A DNA stretch of 64,000 nucleotides from Pseudomonas sp. BGr12. Lineage in GTDB: Bacteria > Pseudomonadota > Gammaproteobacteria > Pseudomonadales > Pseudomonadaceae. Numbering within the stretch: position 1 is the stretch's first letter; the number at the start of each line of letters is the position of its first letter. The position numbers and the translations under genes are program-made. Of the stretch, positions 61,782 through 64,000 are shown in pieces. Location: the NCBI RefSeq assembly GCF_030272895.1, contig NZ_JALRNF010000013.1, positions 1 to 64,000 on the forward strand. The letters are read 5' to 3'. Under the pieces are notes generated by a model, which did no database searches, had not been told where the DNA came from, and worked only from the letters and a program-made list of their open reading frames with translations.

Positions 61782-62168
61782 TTAACGCCAAGGCGTGGTG
61801 GTGGCCGGTCGGGCTATGGCCGCTTCGCCACTACGCAGATGGCCCAGTTGCTCCAGGGTCTGCAGGCGGGCACGGGCGCGGTAGGCGTATTCGTTCTGCG
61901 GGTAGCGGGCGATGATGTACTGGTAGGTCTGGGCGGCATCGACGTAGAGCTTCTGGCGCTCCAGGCACTGGCCGCGCAGCATCGAGACTTCCGGGTGGAT
62001 GAACGGTCGTGCGCGGCTGGTGCGGTCGACCTGCGACAGTTCGAGCATGACGCGCTCGCAGTTGCCACGGTCGTAGGCGCGGTAGGCGTTGTTCAGATGA
62101 TGGTCCATCGACCAGCGGGTGCAGCCGACGACACTGGTCGCCAGGGCTAGAACGATCAAGGCTCGCAT
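61782..62168 (-). CDS. Putative TPR-like lipoprotein
   Basis: 128 residues from the ATG at 62168 (GGAG upstream). A lipobox 'SVVGC' follows a short hydrophobic signal. The mature part is helical, with a YbgF/TPR-type repeat pattern 'LYVDAAQTYQYIIARYPQNEYAYRARARL'-like in the C-terminal half (quoted in part: 'AAQTYQYIIARYPQNEYAY'). It is probably an outer-membrane-attached adaptor. Function unknown. Confidence 0.75.
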   Translation of the reverse strand: MRALIVLALATSVVGCTRWSMDHHLNNAYRAYDRGNCERVMLELSQVDRTSRARPFIHPEVSMLRGQCLERQKLYVDAAQTYQYIIARYPQNEYAYRARARLQTLEQLGHLRSGEAAIARPATTTPWR

Positions 62169-62280
62169 GGGGGGATCTCCTTTAATGAGCAGTGTATCGG
62201 CGTTTGCTGGCAAATCTATAGGTGGGCCTGGTTCTGTGGTGGCTTGTGATGGTTTGTGAAGGCTTCCAGTTCTGGGGGCT

Positions 62281-62892
62281 TATCCATTTGCCATGGCGGC
62301 GCTGATTCACCTTTCCGCCCTTACGGCGGGCTACTTTGTCGTGGCAAAGTAGCCAAACCGTGCGTCCCTGCATACGGCCCTACGCTGCGCTTCGGGTCCC
62401 TTCCCTCCGGCATTGCTCCCGCTGGGGCGCACCGACGGGCCGTCCCTGGCCCGACGGTGCTTGCAGGCCATCCATGGCCTGCACCCAGCTCCGCAATACC
62501 TCCGCTCAGCCTCCTGAAGGGACGAATCGTGTCGTCTGGACTGACGATGTACGATCAGCAAAAGCAAAAGCAAAGAAGAACCATCGCTTCGCTCCGCTAT
62601 TGCTCTTGCTTCTGAGCACGCGATATTCCAGGCGCCACCAATCGTCCCTTCAGGAGGCCGAGTGGAACCCTTGCGTAGTGGGGCGACGGCCATGGATGGC
62701 CGGCGAGCGCCGCAGGGCCAGGGACGGCCCTTCGGCGCGCCCCCGCGGGAGCAAGGGTGGAAGGAGGGAACCCGAAGCGAAGCGTAGGGCCGGATGCAGG
62801 GACAGGGCGTTTTTGGTTACTTTTGCCGCCAAGCAAAAGTGACCCGCCGTAAGGGCGGAAAGGTGAATCAGCGTCACCCTGGCAAATGGATA
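62281..62892. repeat. 612-bp inverted-repeat element with conserved hairpins
   Basis: The ~247-bp left arm (62281-62527) and ~250-bp right arm (62641-62892) are inverted, diverged copies of one sequence, around a ~113-bp centre. Each arm carries hairpins: CCGCC-CTTAC-GGCGG; GGCTACTTTG / CAAAGTAGCC (62329-62354) against GTTACTTTTGC / GCAAAAGTGAC (62816-62843); and GCACCG.CGGGCC / GGCCCG.CGGTGC (62429-62460) against GCGCCG.AGGGCC / GGCCCT.CGGCGC (62707-62738). Paired bases change together between arms. No credible ORF. It fills most of the 880-bp gap between the lipoprotein gene and pyk. Confidence 0.85.
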
Positions 62893-63047
62893 AAACCACC
62901 ACTCAACTGCCAACGTTCTACCCGCCCAACCGACTCGCGCCCCGTTCAAACGCCCCACGTCCCCTCGAGCAGGTAGTGCAAAGGAACAATGACTACAGCG
63001 AAATTCCAGAGTAGCCTTTCGCTGCGCTTCACTATAGGAGTCTGTGC

Positions 63048-64000
63048 ATGACCATCCGCCGTACCAAAATCGTCGCCACCCTTGGCCCCGCCAGCAACTC
63101 GCCGCAAGTCATCGAACAACTGATCCTTGCCGGCCTGGATGTCGCCCGCCTGAACTTCTCCCACGGCACCCCCGATGAGCACAAGGCCCGCGCCCGCCTG
63201 ATCCGCGAAATCGCGGCAAAACTGGGTCGCCACGTAGCACTGCTCGGCGACCTGCAAGGCCCGAAGATCCGTATCGCCAAATTCGCCAACAAGCGCATCG
63301 AACTCAAAGTCGGTGACCGCTTCACCTTCTCCACCGCCCACCCCCTGACCGAAGGCACCCAGGACATCGTCGGTATCGACTACCCGGACCTGGTCAAGGA
63401 CTGCGGCGTCGGTGACGAGCTGCTGCTCGACGACGGCCGCGTGGTCATGCGCGTAGAGACCGCCACCAGCGATTCCCTGCACTGCTCGGTCCTGATCGGC
63501 GGCCCGCTGTCCGACCACAAGGGCATCAACCGCAAAGGCGGCGGCCTGACCGCCCCGGCCCTGACCGAAAAAGACAAGGCCGACATCAAGCTGGCCGCGG
63601 AAATGGACCTGGACTACCTGGCTGTTTCGTTCCCGCGTGACGCCAGCGACATGGAATACGCCCGTCGCCTGCGCGACGAAGCCGGCGGCAGCGCCTGGCT
63701 GGTGGCCAAGATCGAACGCGCCGAAGCCGTGGCCGACGACGAGACCCTCGATGGCCTGATCGCCGCCAGTGACGCGGTGATGGTTGCCCGTGGCGACCTG
63801 GGCGTGGAAATCGGCGACGCCGAGCTGATCGCGATCCAGAAGAAAATCATCCAGCACGCCCGCCGCAACAACAAGGCCGTGATCGTCGCCACGCAGATGA
63901 TGGAATCGATGATCCAGAATCCGATGCCGACCCGCGCCGAAGTGTCCGACGTGGCCAACGCCGTGCTGGATAACACCGATGCGGTGATGCTCTCGGCCGA
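63048..64000 (+). CDS. pykA: Pyruvate kinase, 5' part (cut by window end)
   Basis: 317 codons are present; the gene runs off the window. AGGAG lies 9 bp before the ATG at 63048. Catalytic barrel features: '[20 protein letters not shown]', '[16 protein letters not shown]', '[14 protein letters not shown]', a B-domain (about 70-170), '[20 protein letters not shown]', the catalytic Lys in '[12 protein letters not shown]' and '[13 protein letters not shown]'. It makes pyruvate and ATP from phosphoenolpyruvate. The II-type sequence suggests pykA rather than pykF. Confidence 0.95.

Follow-up and report, generated by a model that had tools for sequence, protein, structure and literature searches.

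The DNA analysed here (the window) is a 64,000-nucleotide stretch of Pseudomonas sp. BGr12 in which a lipoprotein gene and pyk lie divergently, with their starts 877 bp apart. The gap between them contains an inverted repeat of 614 bp (62280–62893), delimited by self-blastn of the window. Its long arms align over 622 columns with 78% identity, the centre counted in, and the element ends in exact 14-bp terminal inverted repeats (Table 1). A sequence-only reading of this locus had described two such arms around a centre of about 113 bp; the arms were recovered, while the centre measures 88 bp. The stems quoted in that reading, including the swapped base pairs, the mismatch between them and the loop, are present in hairpins 1 and 2 of both arms. 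The ORFs across the element had been dismissed as shadows, and we likewise rejected protein coding, as none of the five ORFs tested, out of seven listed (≥60 aa), had a Pfam match at E 0.01. Related single arms carry hexanucleotide runs (GGCTTT or GGCTCT) directly upstream, e.g., L035 at 1395–1460; runs of at least two units were found in 10 of 63 upstream stretches versus 0 of 63 downstream. Runs of AAAAGC or CAAGAGC occupy the same place in the window centre and in related elements.

Table 1. Features of the inverted-repeat element, in window coordinates.
Feature	Position	Strand	Description
Left arm	62280–62539	-	TwoAYGGAY-type unit with minus-strand sense
Right arm	62628–62893	+	TwoAYGGAY-type unit with plus-strand sense
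Centre	62540–62627	none	88 bp, AAAAGC-type short repeats
Left arm hairpin 1	62463–62482	-	Loop AUGGAU
Left arm hairpin 2	62429–62460	-	Loop AGGGAC, internal mismatch kept
Right arm hairpin 1	62687–62702	+	Loop AUGGAU
Right arm hairpin 2	62707–62738	+	Loop AGGGAC, internal mismatch kept
Left arm 3' hairpin	62329–62354	-	CTTTG/CAAAG stem
Right arm 3' hairpin	62815–62844	+	CTTTTG/CAAAAG stem
Left terminal repeat	62280–62293	none	TTATCCATTTGCCA
Right terminal repeat	62880–62893	none	Perfect reverse complement of the left terminal repeat

The arms resemble TwoAYGGAY RNA (RF01731), the sole Rfam family to reach its cut-off in the whole window. The left arm scored 45.9 bits on the minus strand, above the curated cut-off of 43 bits, and the right arm scored 41.5 bits on the plus strand, 1.5 bits under it; the matches cover only positions 46–112 and 49–108 of the 168 in the model. 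The sense direction of each matching arm leads away from the centre, and the two arms use opposite strands. Weak Rfam matches such as those to mir-503 and PtaRNA1 were below their own cut-offs and were discarded. The family was originally listed from the human gut, gamma-Proteobacteria and Clostridiales (PMC2864571), and Gardner and Eldai matched it to a model of the CsrA site and suggested, for Clostridia, RNAs that bind CsrA (PMC4333381). Both the family and its CsrA-binding hypothesis are thus already published, and were overlooked when the repeat was said to have no described function.

In the predicted folds, each arm displays two apical-loop GGA sites, two being the minimum for a sponge-type RNA. 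The loops, AUGGAU and AGGGAC, are closed by C-G pairs, i.e., CANGGANG, the recognition shape of RsmA/CsrA. The first fits AYGGAY; the second deviates at Y, with the GGA retained. Proteins of the CsrA family target short hairpins with a GGA loop, two per dimer (PMC7366521). A preference of RsmA for AUGGA has been described (PMC11882435), and an RsmZ-2 hairpin with AAGGAU is bound by RsmA with a Kd of 276 nM (PMC4066749). Three CsrA-family genes are present in the genome that contains the window. When the lists of csrA-bearing and TwoAYGGAY-positive genomes were compared by eye, csrA was found in 35 of 35 positive genomes versus 220 of 398 in the phylum sample overall, which is weak evidence, uncorrected for kinship; within the class, the comparison (13 of 13 versus 159 of 185) was uninformative. 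A scan of 62150–63060, a weak test in itself, found no sigma-70-like promoter.

Folded alone, either arm is predicted to form an outer stem that encloses two adjacent hairpins, followed by more hairpins on the 3' side. The left arm had a z-score of -3.9, with none of 200 shuffles equally good, and the right arm one of -2.6, with 2 of 200 equally good. As a single RNA, the whole element reached -470.7 kcal/mol (z -24.7; 20 shuffles), and its most stable fold pairs arm with arm.

The conservation of the loops was assessed in copies retrieved by their flanks, and counts made with a pattern that itself contained GGA were set aside as biased. Flank sequence free of the GGA hairpins served as the query against nine genomes, and 60 stretches from four of these genomes yielded 63 arms. 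Both CANGGANG loops were retained in 57 of the 63 arms and one in two arms, and both hairpins were lost in four. The latter (L338, L374, L383 and L389), all retrieved by the 3' flank, appear to have undergone a clean deletion of both GGA hairpins. A second collection, comprising 36 arms of the P. putida group, was retrieved by whole-arm similarity. Here, GGA was present in 71 of 72 loops (35 of 36 first loops and all 36 second loops), over loop lengths of 4 (AGGA), 5 (AGGAC, AGGAU) or 6 nt; the stems change and the GGA stays. In other families, loci (L128, L133, L135, L138 and L143) were seen to combine one GGA hairpin with a second hairpin of another kind, for example with an ACGAC loop or as a perfect palindrome.

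Covariation was evaluated in two alignments. Set A1 comprised 57 rows, after exclusion of the four hairpin-less arms and two arms with an insertion (L362 and L377), and set A2 comprised 36 rows of 38 arms, after exclusion of L005:1719-2003, which was off register, and L297. In the 57-arm set, changes on both sides were found in 18 of 64 pairs (233 cells), a level matched by none of 500 shuffles, and 97.8% of cells pair, versus 40–52% with the partners slid; the count of further pair types was unexceptional (71 of 500 shuffles). In the 36-arm set, 27 of 49 predicted pairs had changed on both sides. Hence the hairpins are kept by compensatory change, as had been proposed from the sequence of the two arms. 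The sequence-only reading had also stated that an absence of copies in relatives, or of covariation beyond chance, would count against it; copies and covariation were both found.

With the sense-strand structure of the 57-arm set, G-U exceeded A-C by 97 to 18 cells (23 to 7 columns, p = 0.005), and in the 40 pairs shared by the predictions for the two strands by 24 to 4 cells (14 to 2 columns, p = 0.004). In the 36-arm set, the corresponding values were 59 to 12 cells (14 to 6 columns, p = 0.12) and, for both-strand pairs, 16 to 10, neither of which was significant. The G-U asymmetry speaks for one working strand, and by itself would fit RNA and single-stranded DNA alike.

Copies of the repeat are abundant, in line with the earlier suggestion of a common Pseudomonas intergenic repeat family. 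The right arm had at least 47 matches in its own genome (40 candidates scored), and a search of this genome with RF01731 gave at least seven. TwoAYGGAY was found in 20 of 25 genomes labelled as Pseudomonas (own included), with listed matches reaching at least 60 per genome, in none of 14 control genomes and, in wider samples, in 13 of 185 genomes of the class and 35 of 398 of the phylum. The counts per genome are lower bounds, since 73, 14 and 6 candidates per genome were scored in the genus, class and phylum surveys, respectively. Arm matches were present in 14 of 15 P. putida-group relatives. Among 182 matches listed outside the genus of the window, neighbouring pairs less than 1 kb apart were outward-facing in 14 cases, tandem in five and inward-facing in one; the 14 outward pairs were spread over eight genomes, three of them outside the family of the window, and such pairs are seen again in distant Gammaproteobacteria. 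Outward pairs also prevail at the P. putida-group loci, where inward ones exist and the same place is sometimes listed under two ids.

Many related repeats of this genome share the frame of the element with different contents. Of the 47 own-genome matches listed, nine extend into the stretch of the GGA hairpins and 38 align only outside it. Six outside-only elements (L010, L011, L012, L013, L016 and L023) agree in their ends, in the outer portions of the arms and in the short-repeat centre, and differ in their inner hairpins, among which a GGA loop was seen in none of the six; in three of them, the fold of a common 3' stretch has an AGGA loop. A match to sRNA P14 of Pseudomonas (RF01669, 89.2 bits) lies near L010, at 2530–2663 on the minus strand. 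Judged by their sequences, the related repeats are a common frame with exchangeable inner inserts. Since related elements have spread with other inner hairpins, the GGA pair would not be needed for spread, and it has the look of an optional cargo, retained where present. The retention of the GGA loops along with the stems, the outward sense of the arms and the many related repeats whose flanks are the same but whose inner hairpins differ go beyond what the sequence-only reading had described.

We compared the best 80 of 264 relatives of the lipoprotein gene, all of which have pyk as a neighbour. The start-to-start distance in these relatives is about 160–310 bp, and the element was missing between the two genes in 80 of 80. 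One of the 80 sites contains a 25-bp match to the REP-like centre of a related type, and two of the relatives carry related elements at other places in the DNA retrieved. The window copy is, from this comparison, a lineage-specific insertion, because all 80 orthologous sites lack the element. Next to pyk, the sequence is conserved, and this part is not included in the element. We therefore rejected a conserved cis leader of pyk, and cis control of pyk is unlikely, because the window copy is outside the conserved leader. By the lipoprotein, the closest relatives among the matches listed were Pseudomonas sp. BBP2017, P. vranovensis and P. putida 31303. One genome (G017) carries the same species label as that of the window (G000), yet the compared pyk stretch is just 80% identical; the label looks doubtful, and by protein the near relatives belong to the P. 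putida group.

The placement of arms relative to genes was counted in a related group that consists mainly of single arms, with genes called by a simple ORF/GC3 script. The 122 arm-bearing gaps included 68 convergent, 53 co-directional and one divergent, versus 22, 83 and 59, respectively, for arm-free gaps, so that arms are depleted in divergent gaps (Fisher p about 1e-15). The window copy is an exception to this distribution. Sense-strand placement in host mRNAs was considered and dropped: an initial ratio of 15:7 became 31 sense versus 21 antisense for single arms between co-directional genes in the larger set (p = 0.21).

We consider it somewhat more probable than the contrary (roughly 0.55) that a chromosomal repeat of dispersed type is present here as a lineage-specific copy, that both arms are TwoAYGGAY-type units facing outward, and that each arm, if transcribed, is predicted to form two GGA-loop hairpins likely bound by one dimer of RsmA/RsmE, of the CsrA family. 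The sequence itself shows the arms, the loops, the covariation, the numerous copies and the empty sites in relatives; transcription and Rsm binding are inferred. Transcripts of the repeats would then titrate Rsm protein, and the Gac/Rsm network would be tuned by the number of copies. The Rfam matches, the retained loops, the covariation, the G-U excess in the 57-arm set, the empty sites and the presence of csrA speak for this reading. Weighing against it, 38 of the 47 own-genome matches are confined to sequence outside the GGA hairpins, the six such elements read have other inner hairpins, sense and antisense placement do not differ significantly, the G-U asymmetry is not significant in the 36-arm set, the promoter scan was negative, and the most stable fold of the whole element joins the two arms. 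In a through-transcript, which has a sense arm together with its complement, the arms could snap into a long hairpin, and this pairing could mask the GGA sites.

The same element could be a selfish, MITE-like one, whose hairpins serve its own mobility or protection as single-stranded DNA and whose GGA loops belong to that signal rather than to an Rsm site. The exact terminal repeats, the lineage-specific insertion and the related elements that combine these flanks with different inner hairpins all accord with such an origin, and the strand asymmetry is also compatible with transposition of one DNA strand. However, retention of the CANGGANG loops in 57 of 63 arms, and of GGA over loops of 4 to 6 nt, is what is expected of RsmA/CsrA sites. 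Moreover, distant blastn gave no plasmid match to the window element and no plasmid or phage match to one related arm. At the empty sites, the insertion point is too diverged to define a target-site duplication. We regard this explanation as unlikely.

A role at mRNA ends, in which strong hairpins terminate or shield transcripts, chiefly between convergent genes, seems quite improbable to us. It would explain the convergent bias of the related group, and a similar bias of P. fluorescens repeats was termed the least-worst location by Silby 2009 (PMC2718517), but avoidance of promoters accounts for the placement equally well, the window copy itself lies between divergent genes, and a terminator has no need of conserved GGA loops. 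The paired changes might also have arisen by palindrome correction during replication, with the template switched from one hairpin arm to the other, rather than by selection on the fold. Nested palindromes are substrates of this process, and the G-U asymmetry is not significant among the P. putida-group arms; nevertheless, the internal mismatches and loops have been kept and not corrected, and G-U exceeds A-C in the larger, 57-arm set, making this a very improbable source of the pattern.

The arms can be set beside several known systems. With TwoAYGGAY RNA they share two adjacent GGA-loop hairpins, but here the arms belong to a dispersed, outward-facing inverted pair and match the model only in part. 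CsrB and RsmX/Y/Z are sponge RNAs, whose GGA-loop hairpins are of the same CsrA/RsmA-titrating kind; the repeats differ in that their copies are numerous and dispersed, each arm has two main sites, and the scan showed no promoter. MITEs and REP/REPIN elements are likewise dispersed, intergenic, palindromic and non-coding, without the long arms, nested hairpins and conserved loops found here, and no partner transposase with the same ends was seen in the loci read. The R178, R200 and R26 repeats of Pseudomonas, of 101–352 bp, are intergenic with a bias toward convergent genes (Silby 2009; PMC2718517), a likeness by description. In the open PMC literature, we found no account of a dispersed, back-to-back repeat form with exchangeable inner hairpins.

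Less probably, a dispersing family may spread RsmA/CsrA decoys through Gammaproteobacterial chromosomes, with back-to-back units that would yield binding-competent RNA from either strand and a repeat load that would rewire Gac/Rsm by lineage. Should transcribed copies bind RsmA/RsmE, RsmX/Y/Z could face competition from tens of dispersed loci in each genome. The output of Gac/Rsm would then depend on repeat load and could differ among strains with identical rsm genes, and the orphan RNA family TwoAYGGAY would gain a genomic context in which it could be tested directly.
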